From: Oscillospiraceae bacterium
GTDB lineage: Bacteria; Bacillota; Clostridia; Oscillospirales; Oscillospiraceae
Direction: 5' to 3'
DNA: 52,595 nucleotides
Assembly (NCBI GenBank): GCA_017397835.1
Contig: JAFQHV010000022.1
Span: forward strand, 1 to 52,595
Made by a program: the position numbers and the translations under genes. Below, one piece after another: positions 11,561 through 18,422 of the stretch. Each line of letters opens with the position of its first letter. Position 1 is the first letter of the stretch. The notes beneath the pieces are model-generated. The model ran no database searches, had not been told where the DNA came from, and worked only from the letters and a program-made list of their open reading frames with translations.

Positions 11561-11599
11561 AAAATTCGCCCCCCCTTGTTCAAGCCTACGAATTTTCGT
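11561..11599 (+). promoter_or_regulatory. Candidate operator upstream of the purine promoter
   Basis: AAAATTCG (11561-11568) and CGAATTTT (11589-11596) are inverted copies; ACGAA-TT-TTCGT (11588-11599) is also a perfect palindrome, ending seven bases before the -35. CGAA-containing boxes are the core of PurR sites in Firmicutes, but spacing and flanks differ from the B. subtilis arrangement. Confidence 0.35.
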
Positions 11600-11606
11600 T
11601 CTGCCC

Positions 11607-11635
11607 TTGCAAATTTGTACTTTTTTCGATAAAAT
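11607..11635 (+). promoter_or_regulatory. Promoter of the purine operon leader
   Basis: TTGCAA (11607-11612), 17 bases, TAAAAT (11630-11635). Transcription would begin near 11642, just ahead of the ribosome site of the leader ORF. Confidence 0.7.
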
Positions 11636-11667
11636 AGGTACCAAGTTATGATGAGGAGGCTATCGGT

Positions 11668-11739
11668 ATGCTGGTTGTTTTTTCTCGTATGAACTGCCTG
11701 TGCGCCTGCGGTCTCTTTGTGTCTAAAATCGCCGTGTAA
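11668..11739 (+). CDS. Cys-rich 23-residue leader peptide
   Basis: A short ORF with a perfect AGGAGG eight bases before its ATG lies between the purine promoter and a strong terminator. Its middle reads MNCLCACG (residues 8-15), three Cys codons alternating with other residues. It ends in TAA only four bases before the terminator stem. This is the layout of a transcription-attenuation leader. The block GCCTGCGG (11704-11711) resembles the terminator 3' arm and could compete for its 5' arm CCGC. I do not recognise the peptide. Whether Cys-tRNA, translation rate or a bound ligand is sensed is unknown. Confidence 0.65.
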   Translation: MLVVFSRMNCLCACGLFVSKIAV

Positions 11740-11743
11740 GCCC

Positions 11744-11781
11744 TCGGCTGTCCGCACCCTGCGGGCAGCCGGTTTTCTTTT
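11744..11781 (+). terminator. Attenuator before purE
   Basis: The stem CGGCTG-T-CCGC / GCGG-G-CAGCCG (11745-11755 with 11761-11771), loop ACCCT, is followed by GTTTTCTTTT. It lies between promoter and purE, so read-through must be regulated or partial. Confidence 0.85.
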
Positions 11782-11807
11782 GACGGCACCGCTATGGAGG
11801 TATGATC

Positions 11808-12305
11808 ATGAGCAAAAAAGTCGCTGTTATCATGGGTTCCGACTCCGACTGGCCCGTGGTAAAGGCCGCCTGCGCCCAACTGGAGCAGTTCGGCATTCCC
11901 TTTGAGGCCCACATCCTCAGCGCCCACCGCACCCCCGCCGCCGCCGCGGAATTTGCAAAGAACGCCCGAGCCAACGGCTTCGGCGTGCTCATCTGCGCCG
12001 CCGGCATGGCCGCTCACCTGGCCGGTGCCTTCGCCGGCAACTCTACCCTGCCCGTCATCGGCATCCCCATGAAGGGCGGCGCCGTGGACGGTTTGGACGC
12101 CCTGCTGGCCACCGTGCAGATGCCCAGCGGCATCCCCGTGGCTACCGTGGCCATCAACGGCGCCAAGAACGCCGCCGTGCTGGCCGCCCAGATGCTGTCT
12201 ATCTATGACGACGAGCTGGCCGCCAAGCTGGACGCCGCCCGCGTGGACATGGCAAACCAGATCGCAGAAAAGGAAGCAAAGCTTCAGGCTGAACTCAACG
12301 GCTGA
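11808..12305 (+). CDS. purE: N5-carboxyaminoimidazole ribonucleotide mutase
   Basis: This is class I PurE, 165 residues, which moves the carboxyl group from N5-CAIR to make CAIR. The phosphate and active-site motifs GSDSDWP, SAHRTP and AAGMAAHL are intact. ATG 11802 is one base from GGAGG, so ATG 11808 ([10 protein letters not shown]) is preferred. No purK lies in the window; its partner must be elsewhere, or bicarbonate supply is sufficient. It is the first structural gene of the purine operon, behind the attenuator. Confidence 0.95.
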
Positions 12306-16202: not shown

Positions 16203-16312
16203 GACCGCGTGCGATATGACTGACGGAAGTGGAATTGACCACAGGGAATACCGCATAAGAACTGCCGACCGTCTGGGCGCACCATGTTTCTTGCATCGGT
16301 GCGCCCTTTTTT
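16203..16312 (+). promoter_or_regulatory. ZTP (pfl) riboswitch with overlapping terminator
   Basis: The spacer between purN and the PurO-like gene fits the ZMP/ZTP aptamer: a 5' domain with CGTGCGATATGACTGACGG, GGGAATACCG in the junction, then the conserved 3' block CCGACCGTCTGGGC (16265-16278). That last block enters a terminator stem, GGGCGCACC (16275-16283) with GGTGCGCCC (16298-16306), followed by TTTTTT. Ligand binding would hold the 3' block in the aptamer pseudoknot and stop the terminator forming. ZMP/ZTP accumulates when 10-formyl-THF is short; here it would raise the enzymes that consume ZMP. Confidence 0.87.
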
Positions 16313-16334
16313 AACAGAGAAAGGAGAAACGACC

Positions 16335-17042
16335 ATGCAGCTTTTGGACTTTAACAACATCCTGCAAAACCACGCCTACCCCGGCCGCGGCATCATGCTG
16401 GGCCGCTCCGCCGACAACCAAAAGGCGGTCATCGCCTACTTCATCATGGGCCGCAGCGAGAACAGCCGCAACCGCATCTTCGAGACCACCGAGGACGGCA
16501 TCCGCACCAAGGCTTTTGACGAAAGCAAGATGGTGGACCCCTCCCTCATCATCTACCATCCCGTCCGGGTGCTGAACGGTGACACCATCGTCACCAACGG
16601 CGACCAGACCGACACCATCCGCGACTTCATGCTGGAGGGCAAGAGCTATATCGAGGCTCTGCGTACCCGCTGCTACGAGCCTGATCCCCCCAACTACACC
16701 CCCCGCATCTCCGGCGTGGTGAACCAGGACGGCTCCTACTGCCTGTCCATCCTCAAGTCCGCCGACGGCAACCCCGACTGCAACCACCGTTTCTTCTATG
16801 AGTACGATGCCCCCGTGGCCGGCACCGGCCACTTCATCCACACCTATCAGGAGAACCTGGATCCCCTGCCCTCCTTTGAGGGTGAGCCCCGCAAGGTGGC
16901 CGTTACCGCCCCCGATGCCAAGACGTTGGCAGGCGAGCTGTGGGCCAACCTGAACGGGGACAACAAGGTGTCCCTGTTTGTGGAGTATATCGACCTCGCT
17001 ACCGGCAAGCGCGACAGCGTCATCATTAACAAGCACAACTAA
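16335..17042 (+). CDS. purO: IMP cyclohydrolase, archaeal PurO-like
   Basis: This 235-residue protein has the IMP_cyclohyd (PurO) pattern rather than the bacterial PurH N-domain: PGRGIMLGRSADNQKAVIAY, then YFIMGRSENSRNRIF, and YHPVRVLNGDTIVTNGDQTD. It closes FAICAR to IMP. Start ATG 16335 follows AAAGGAG directly after the ZTP riboswitch terminator. Its partner, a stand-alone AICAR transformylase, is the next gene. The symbol is used by similarity to the archaeal enzyme. Confidence 0.85.
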   Translation: MQLLDFNNILQNHAYPGRGIMLGRSADNQKAVIAYFIMGRSENSRNRIFETTEDGIRTKAFDESKMVDPSLIIYHPVRVLNGDTIVTNGDQTDTIRDFMLEGKSYIEALRTRCYEPDPPNYTPRISGVVNQDGSYCLSILKSADGNPDCNHRFFYEYDAPVAGTGHFIHTYQENLDPLPSFEGEPRKVAVTAPDAKTLAGELWANLNGDNKVSLFVEYIDLATGKRDSVIINKHN

Positions 17043-17200
17043 CCCAAATCAAAAGACAAGTCTTTTGATTTGAGTTAAGTTTGCGGCCCCCTGCAGCGCA
17101 CTCGCTGCGCTCGCACGTTTGTGGGCCGAGAAGTGTTTTTTCCGACGCACATGTCGCCGAAAAAAACATTTGTAATTCTTTCGCCGCTGCGGCGGCGAAA
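17041..17200. repeat. Cluster of four hairpins between purO and the transformylase gene
   Basis: Four stems stand in a row: 17041-17057 with 17060-17076 (17 bp, one mismatch, loop AA, starting on the purO stop codon); CGGCCC/GGGCCG around GCAGCG/CGCTGC (17084-17128); an imperfect T-rich/A-rich stem at 17132-17170; and TTTCGCCGC/GCGGCGAAA (17179-17200). None is a clear terminator with a long T-run at its 3' side. No gene is visible. Confidence 0.75.
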
Positions 17201-17249
17201 CAACAGGACAACGACAAAAATCTATCTTTTGGAAAGGCATGTGACTTAA

Positions 17250-18422
17250 ATGACCGAACTGGAACTGAAGTACGGCTGTAACCCCAACCAAAAGCCCGCC
17301 CGCATTTACATGGAGGGCCGCGAGCTGCCTCTGACTGTCCTGAACGGCAAGCCCGGCTACATCAATTTTATGGACGCCCTGAATTCCTGGCAGCTGGTCA
17401 AGGCCCTGAAGAAGTCCACCGGCCTGCCCGCCGCCGCCTCCTTCAAGCATGTCTCCCCTGCCGGCGCCGCTCTGGGCAAGCCCCTGACCGATGTGGAGCG
17501 CAAGATCTACTTCGCCCCCGAGGGTGACCTGTCCCCCATCGCCTGCGCCTACATCCGCGCCCGCGGTGCCGACCGCCTGTGTTCCTTCGGCGACTGGGCC
17601 GCTCTGTCCGACACCTGCGACGCCGATACCGCCCGTTATCTGGCCGCCGAGGTGTCCGACGGTGTCATCGCCCCCGCCTACACCGACGAGGCGCTGGAGA
17701 TCCTGAAGTCCAAGCGCAAGGGCGGCTACAACGTGGTGCAGATCGACCCCGATTACGAGCCTGACCCCGCTGAGCGCCGCAATATTTACGGCATCTGGTT
17801 TGAGCAGGGCTACAACGACCTGTCCATCGACGAGAAGATGCTGGAGAACATCGTCACCGCCAATAAGGAGCTGTCCCAGGACGCCAAGAATGATATGCTC
17901 CTGTCCCTCATCACCCTGAAGTACACCCAGTCCAACTCCGTGTGCTACGTCAAGGACGGCATGACCATCGGCGTGGGCGCCGGCCAGCAGAGCCGCATCC
18001 ACTGCACCCGTCTGGCGGGCAACAAGGCCGACATCTGGTGGCTGCGCCAGCATCCCAAGGTGCTGGGCCTGCAGTTTGTGGACGGCATCCGCCGCCCCGA
18101 CCGTGACAACGCCATTGACATCTACATCTCCGACGAGCACGACGACGTGCTGGCCGAGGGCGTGTGGCAGAACACCTTCAAGGTCCGCCCCGAGGTGCTG
18201 ACCGAGGCCGAGAAGAAAGAGTGGATCGCCAAGATGAGCAGCGTGACCGTCGGCTCCGATGCCTTCTTCCCCTTTGGCGACAATGTTGAGCGCGCCCGCA
18301 AGTCCGGTGTGCAGTACATCGCCCAGCCCGGCGGCTCCATCCGTGACGATCAGGTCATCGCCACCGCCGACAAGTACGGCATGGTCATGGCCTTCACCGG
18401 CATCCGCCTGTTCCACCACTAA
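17250..18422 (+). CDS. Stand-alone AICAR formyltransferase
   Basis: This 390-residue protein corresponds to the C-terminal AICARFT domain of PurH; the N-terminal IMP cyclohydrolase domain is absent. The catalytic Lys-His pair is K66-H67 in FKHVSPAG. Other family blocks are SNSVCYVKDG, GAGQQSRIHCTRLAG, SDAFFPFGDN and AQPGGSIRDD. It adds the formyl group from 10-formyl-THF to AICAR to give FAICAR, which the PurO-like neighbour then closes. It follows the ZTP riboswitch in the same transcript. Confidence 0.93.
   Translation: MTELELKYGCNPNQKPARIYMEGRELPLTVLNGKPGYINFMDALNSWQLVKALKKSTGLPAAASFKHVSPAGAALGKPLTDVERKIYFAPEGDLSPIACAYIRARGADRLCSFGDWAALSDTCDADTARYLAAEVSDGVIAPAYTDEALEILKSKRKGGYNVVQIDPDYEPDPAERRNIYGIWFEQGYNDLSIDEKMLENIVTANKELSQDAKNDMLLSLITLKYTQSNSVCYVKDGMTIGVGAGQQSRIHCTRLAGNKADIWWLRQHPKVLGLQFVDGIRRPDRDNAIDIYISDEHDDVLAEGVWQNTFKVRPEVLTEAEKKEWIAKMSSVTVGSDAFFPFGDNVERARKSGVQYIAQPGGSIRDDQVIATADKYGMVMAFTGIRLFHH

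Follow-up and report, generated by a model that had tools for sequence, protein, structure and literature searches.

A conserved leader ORF with a pause consensus and a terminator precedes purE in Oscillospiraceae and may act as a ribosome-coupled attenuator

The locus raises the question of how the purine operon in the window (the whole 52,595-nt stretch of DNA that was analyzed) is controlled from the leader upstream of its first gene, purE. An earlier note on this DNA had placed a 23-codon open reading frame (ORF) with a Shine-Dalgarno site between a promoter-like pair and purE, with a stop codon 4 bases ahead of a strong terminator and with no purine riboswitch. The ORF was present as claimed and was conserved in relatives; it ends at 11739, and the terminator stem begins at 11744, 4 bases past the stop. 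A purine riboswitch was not detected upstream of purE, and no Rfam family exceeded its threshold in the leader, but a ZTP riboswitch is located inside the operon. The conserved leader ORF and terminator very probably control the purine operon. The regulatory role that had been proposed for them is in line with their conservation in relatives, whereas Cys as the input did not hold. The features of the region are as follows.

11576-11595, + strand: conserved element TTGTTCAAGCCTACGAATTT, a possible operator upstream of the promoter (mismatch search)
11607-11635, + strand: promoter-like sequence (-35 TTGCAA at 11607-11612, -10 TAAAAT at 11630-11635)
11651-11661, + strand: 5' strand of stem P1, which includes the Shine-Dalgarno site (minimum-free-energy [MFE] fold, covariation)
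11654-11659, + strand: Shine-Dalgarno site AGGAGG of the leader ORF
11668-11739, + strand: leader ORF, ATG to TAA, MLVVFSRMNCLCACGLFVSKIAV, 23 codons (ORF list)
11710-11720, + strand: 3' strand of stem P1 (MFE fold), the stretch expected in the RNA-DNA hybrid during the proposed pausing
11710-11721, + strand: match to the pause consensus G-10 Y-3 G-2 Y-1 G+1, GGTCTCTTTGTG
11744-11781, + strand: intrinsic terminator (stem-loop 11744-11772 and T-rich tail)
11808-12305, + strand: purE, the first gene of the operon (TIGR01162; an alternative ORF start at 11802 is also open)
16206-16285, + strand: ZMP/ZTP riboswitch between purN and the purO-like gene (RF01750, 55.2 bits, cut-off 39)

Layout and distribution of the leader

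The terminator stem consists of 13 pairs, 9 of which are G-C, followed by TTTTCTTTT. Its arms covary in congeners (z -7.0 in a pair-energy test), and the promoter-like arrangement is similar in congeners. The leader sequence of the window folded moderately better than shuffled sequences (z -2.04); this single-sequence fold alone would not have proved the leader, which was established by comparison. The element TTGTTCAAGCCTACGAATTT was searched in 20 genomes with up to 2 mismatches allowed and had only one match, an exact one, in the genome of the window. It was found before purE in all 13 searched genomes of the genus (the window's included) and was exact in 9 of them. Every exact match seen was before purE, and several genomes had extra matches with 1 or 2 mismatches elsewhere.

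The operon has the order purE-purC-purF-purM-purN-(purO-like)-AICAR formyltransferase-purD. The products of purE, purM, purN, the AICAR formyltransferase gene (PRK07106) and purD were over the NCBIfam cut-off, and those of purC, purF and the purO-like gene were below it. At 16326-18422, a purO-like IMP cyclohydrolase (below cut-off) and the separate AICAR formyltransferase replace a fused PurH. In other families of the order, the ZTP riboswitch, which lies inside the operon in the window, directly precedes purE. There, a ZTP-like sequence took the place of the leader in 36 order-level upstream regions by pattern match; RF01750 matched all 17 of the ZTP-type regions given to Rfam and none of 3 ORF-type leaders run alongside. 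A Bacillus subtilis-type PurR was not detected over the TIGR01743 cut-off in any of 30 genomes; weaker matches in 29 of the 30 were mainly to the phosphoribosyltransferase part.

PurE was present in 63 of 64 genomes of the genus, and the upstream DNA was read at 63 loci, of which 61 had an alignable leader, including one with a broken ORF (L052). The two loci outside the MAFFT alignment of leaders were L006 (genome G013), where the leader is located about 300 nt further upstream of purE, and L011 (G020), which has neither a leader nor a match to the RNA model R1. By eye, the approximately 300-nt spacer of L006 has apparent inverted repeats, as if a small element had been inserted. The model R1, built from 53 congener leaders, comprises the last block of the ORF and the terminator. 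It matched 61 of 64 congeners (absent from G020, G053 and G058) and 42 of 300 genomes of the family at E<=0.001. At the stronger non-congener R1 loci examined, purE was present in 23 of 24 (absent at L093 by tblastn), and at the weaker loci fetched it was present in 3 of 19. Some of the family-level R1 matches are false.

Similar leaders were found elsewhere, among others in Faecalibacterium, Gemmiger and Ruminococcus (best 80 loci of a named-genome scan and an order-wide sample). The order-wide sample had PurE in 239 of 257 genomes. An upstream region was obtained for 108 of 109 order-level loci, and 90 of these 108 contained a terminator. A terminator together with an ORF that has a Shine-Dalgarno site and ends at the terminator was counted in 50 of the 108 regions; this number is too high, because the same loose rule also counted 8 of 36 ZTP-type leaders.

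Several sets of leaders were used for the comparisons below. The 53 leaders of the P1 and segment-pairing tests remained after 8 of 61 were dropped (near-duplicates and L052). The frame set of 82 leaders used 22 of the 26 other-genus loci offered (L092 was unmatched by the pattern; L128, L129 and L131 were skipped) and does not include L052, which has no start; 63 of the 82 entered the codon and distance counts after removal of out-of-frame leaders and near-duplicates, and 69 entered the P1 pairing counts. The distant set consisted of 55 leaders picked by hand, at least one of them (L312) from the window's own family; 51 of the 55 were used for the frame, +1 and shuffle-pairing tests, with 4 near-duplicates dropped. 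Permutation and binomial p-values are too small throughout because the leaders are related.

Translation of the leader ORF and pairing in the leader

Start codons were picked according to how well their Shine-Dalgarno site paired, with ATG given a bonus and the frame ignored. Of 82 leaders, 75 had the chosen start and the conserved block in the same frame, where one third would be expected; the nominal probability of 4e-28 is overstated since the sequences are related. This frame conservation suggests that the leader ORF is translated. The length from start to block varies, and the distance from the start to the pause position was 43-61 nt in the 63 in-frame leaders. The stop codon began 17 nt past the pause position in 41 of 63 leaders and at least 47 nt past it, in or beyond the terminator, in 7 of 63. 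Given this reach, a ribosome coupled to the polymerase could cover the 5' arm of the terminator; in the window, the stop is 4 nt before the stem. The ORF and the terminator were kept in relatives, but the peptide was variable outside the block, and no conserved run of codons that could serve as control codons for a regulated product was seen in the leader peptides.

In the MFE fold of the window, the region around the Shine-Dalgarno site (11651-11661) pairs with the block at the end of the ORF (11710-11720) in stem P1. In the 53 leaders, the 5' region of a leader paired better with its own block than with the blocks of relatives (z -5.7). Among 21 segment pairings, that of the P1 block gave z -6.3, and those of overlapping stretches before and after the block gave -4.4 and -2.2; only P1 and the terminator covaried strongly. 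The own-versus-cross result held again when 22 leaders from other genera were compared (z -3.9). In the 51 distant leaders, whose sequences are quite different, pairing of the 5' region with the ORF end was compared with dinucleotide shuffles and had a mean z of -1.00 +/- 0.21, versus +0.14 +/- 0.17 (n 30) and -0.32 +/- 0.14 (n 51) in two controls. This shuffle test is preferred to the own-versus-cross value of -7.2 in the distant leaders, which is possibly inflated by differing G+C. RNAalifold on the MAFFT alignment recovered only the terminator, and P1 was found by the pair-energy tests instead. A recurrent internal loop was present in P1 in many congeners.

The earlier note had also proposed that a block of the ORF mimics one terminator arm and could form an antiterminator. 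The ORF of the window and the 3' arm of its terminator do share the sequence CCTGCGG, but in relatives there is only weak covariation between the block and the 5' arm (z -2.0, p 0.027, one of the 21 pairings tested). The comparison with relatives that had been suggested thus bore out covarying stems for the terminator and P1, but not clearly for the antiterminator. A classical antiterminator was not favored for lack of clear conservation.

Pause consensus in the conserved block

The block matches the consensus of bacterial RNA polymerase pauses, which is given as G-10 Y-1 G+1 and G-10 Y-3 G-2 Y-1 G+1 by a review and a study based on machine learning (PMC12288461; PMC8096220). In the window, G-10 is located at 11711, Y-3 at 11718, G-2 at 11719, Y-1 at 11720 and G+1 at 11721. 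G-10, Y-3 and Y-1 were found in all 82 leaders, and G+1 in 80 (A in the other 2). G-2 was present in only 36 of the 82, and the window has the full form. Block positions 4 and 5 were pyrimidines in nearly all 82 leaders. Within the block, variation was lower at third codon positions than at several first and second ones, which swap C and T. By alignment, the block appears to be conserved mainly at the nucleic-acid level. A run of A just past the motif (block positions 15-18, 11725-11728) was also well conserved, in 57, 50, 52 and 36 of 60 congeners.

Pairing in the predicted P1 included G-10 in 87% and G+1 in 64% of 69 leaders, and part of the constancy of these two bases may come from P1. P1 alone is insufficient to explain the constancy of the motif, because G+1 is unpaired in 36% of the leaders and yet hardly varies, whereas block positions 3 and 4 are paired in 93-94% and yet are variable.

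The motif was noticed by eye before it was tested on the hand-picked distant set. There, GGN6TGYR was present in 26 of 55 leaders, compared with 3.6 +/- 1.8 in 200 shuffles (maximum 9), and was missing from 29. Of 36 ZTP-type leaders, 1 contained it, as did 45 of 480 stretches of purE coding sequence. The short consensus G-10 Y-1 G+1 showed no enrichment in the distant set (43 of 55 versus 44.8 in shuffles). When GGN6YGY was fixed, 28 of the 51 distant leaders had a purine at +1 and 6 had a pyrimidine. The one-base-shorter form GGN5YGYR was also common, in 20 of 51.

Proposed mechanism and other readings

A pause-timed, ribosome-coupled transcription attenuator, taken as a whole, is the best explanation of the leader, with a probability of roughly 0.55. 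RNA polymerase would transcribe the Shine-Dalgarno site and the start codon and would pause about 43-61 nt past the start codon, inside the ORF. Judged from the coordinates, the 3' strand of P1 would be held in the RNA-DNA hybrid during the pause, and P1 could close only after escape. The Shine-Dalgarno site would be open during the pause because its partner strand sits in the hybrid. A ribosome could then load, catch up with the polymerase, release it and follow it. On arrival at the stop codon, close to the base of the terminator, the coupled ribosome would cover the 5' arm, the terminator would not fold and purE would be transcribed. If the polymerase escaped before loading, P1 would hide the Shine-Dalgarno site, later ribosomes could not rescue transcription and the terminator would fold.

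The core of this reading, a coupled attenuator, is likely. The signal is a more tentative matter. The single conserved elemental pause, followed by a purine, possibly serves as a gauge of GTP, or of ATP in leaders with A at +1, through the time that it leaves for ribosome loading, which would make the leader a purine counterpart of pyrBI; a shortage of GTP or ATP would prolong the pause and open the operon, in the way that low UTP acts at pyrBI. The comparison of leaders shows a conserved ORF and frame, covarying P1 and terminator stems and a conserved pause consensus; we infer that the pause occurs, that a ribosome blocks termination and that a purine nucleoside triphosphate (NTP) is the signal. 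PMC6336406 describes GTP as needed for escape from the pause, with bypass of about 22% at 100 uM and 7% at 10 uM GTP, and loading of the template base as the step that limits escape; GTP was 10-100 uM in those assays. G+1 need not mean GTP sensing, because it belongs to the general pause consensus.

By sequence, the purE leader would work like the pyrBI and hisL attenuators and would stand outside the amino-acid type, since it has no control codons. Like the pyrBI leader (pyrL) of Escherichia coli, it precedes a nucleotide biosynthesis operon and has an ORF that reaches the terminator, which a coupled ribosome is here proposed to prevent from forming; a coupled ribosome lowers termination on pyrL according to PMC10135430 and PMC5021804. 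Unlike pyrBI, it has a stem over the Shine-Dalgarno site and purine genes downstream, and in place of the nucleotide-rich tract of pyrL it has a single conserved pause motif with a purine, mostly G, at +1. Pauses in the hisL and leuL leader regions of E. coli carry the G-10 Y-1 G+1 consensus and are thought to synchronize ribosome and polymerase, as stated in PMC9291695. The purE leader differs from hisL and leuL in having no end-product codons and no clearly conserved antiterminator, and in that P1 uses the Shine-Dalgarno region and, by its position, could close only after the pause. The tlrB leader of B. subtilis responds to tylosin and has a NusG-dependent pause with TTNTTT at -11 to -6, where the purE leader of the window has GGTCTC.

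If the reading is correct, control of purine synthesis of this kind would be widespread in gut Oscillospirales (Lawsonibacter-like genomes and Pseudoflavonifractor, with leaders of a similar kind in Faecalibacterium and Gemmiger), among relatives in which no B. subtilis-type PurR passed the cut-off (0 of 30 genomes). Selection would be maintaining a consensus elemental pause at a fixed point of a leader ORF, where its regulatory role is directly testable. A purine counterpart of pyrBI would then stand where related families have a ZTP riboswitch, and the stem that contains the pause sequence would close off ribosome loading after the pause. A published description of such a purE leader was not found in the open-access literature, a search whose coverage excludes most subscription journals.

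The main rival to a purine NTP as the signal is the capacity for translation initiation. With the same architecture, the input would be the ease of initiation on the leader (IF2-GTP, formylation of fMet-tRNA by 10-formyl-tetrahydrofolate, ppGpp) instead of NTP-limited pausing. The Shine-Dalgarno site lies within or next to P1, and it is the open frame rather than the peptide that is kept. The operon also encodes two formyltransferases (purN and AICAR formyltransferase) and contains a ZTP riboswitch, the same element that replaces the leader in other families. Taken alone, this sensor leaves the near-invariant pause positions and the +1 purine unexplained, and it is rated unlikely.

The pause-timed attenuator also has to be weighed against a P1 that binds a ligand or a protein, as an unrecognized riboswitch, and so decides the translation of the leader ORF. 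Such an element would fit the covariation of the stem and the internal loop that recurs in many congeners. The leader had no Rfam match at threshold, however, its 5' half is little conserved outside the block, and the sequence of the stem differs strongly among distant leaders, unlike an aptamer. A binding element is improbable on these grounds.

Equally improbable is an arrest peptide, in which a C-terminal G-x-x-[AVLP]-x-K-like motif would stall the ribosome near the stop codon on a metabolite. Many leaders in different groups end with this motif, often nine residues before the stop. The resemblance was convincing by eye and was weakened once the motif appeared in other frames, with the in-frame excess remaining. 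A looser form of the nucleotide motif occurred 30 times in the distant leaders, 19, 5 and 6 times in frames 0, 1 and 2, respectively, and GGN6TGYR was in frame in 17 of 51 leaders versus 1.2 in shuffles. It was present only out of frame in 8 of 51 leaders versus 2.2 in shuffles (1 of 400 shuffles reached 8). Because these out-of-frame occurrences are also enriched, although less strongly, the peptide alone cannot account for the whole motif signal; the in-frame excess could come from common descent or from some peptide constraint. The lower variability of third than of first and second codon positions of the block in the 82 leaders also argues against the peptide. Moreover, the -3 and +1 bases follow the pause consensus even where the peptide motif is in frame: at 27 in-frame G-x-x-[A/V] places in the distant leaders, the -3 base was T in 19 (T accounts for 32% of the third positions) and a purine stood at +1 in 20 (compared with 42%).

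Attenuation through Cys codons, which the earlier note had suggested from the three Cys codons in the window's ORF, is very improbable and was dropped, because Cys made up 68 of 844 codons before the block in the 63 leaders (8.1%), close to the 7.0% predicted by positional base frequencies, and 19 of the 63 had no Cys codon there. A check of these 63 leaders for conserved Cys codons found them not to be conserved. In the other two frames, Cys accounted for 5.6% and 4.0%. The variable part of the ORF was composed of 34% T, 29% C, 23% G and 13% A.
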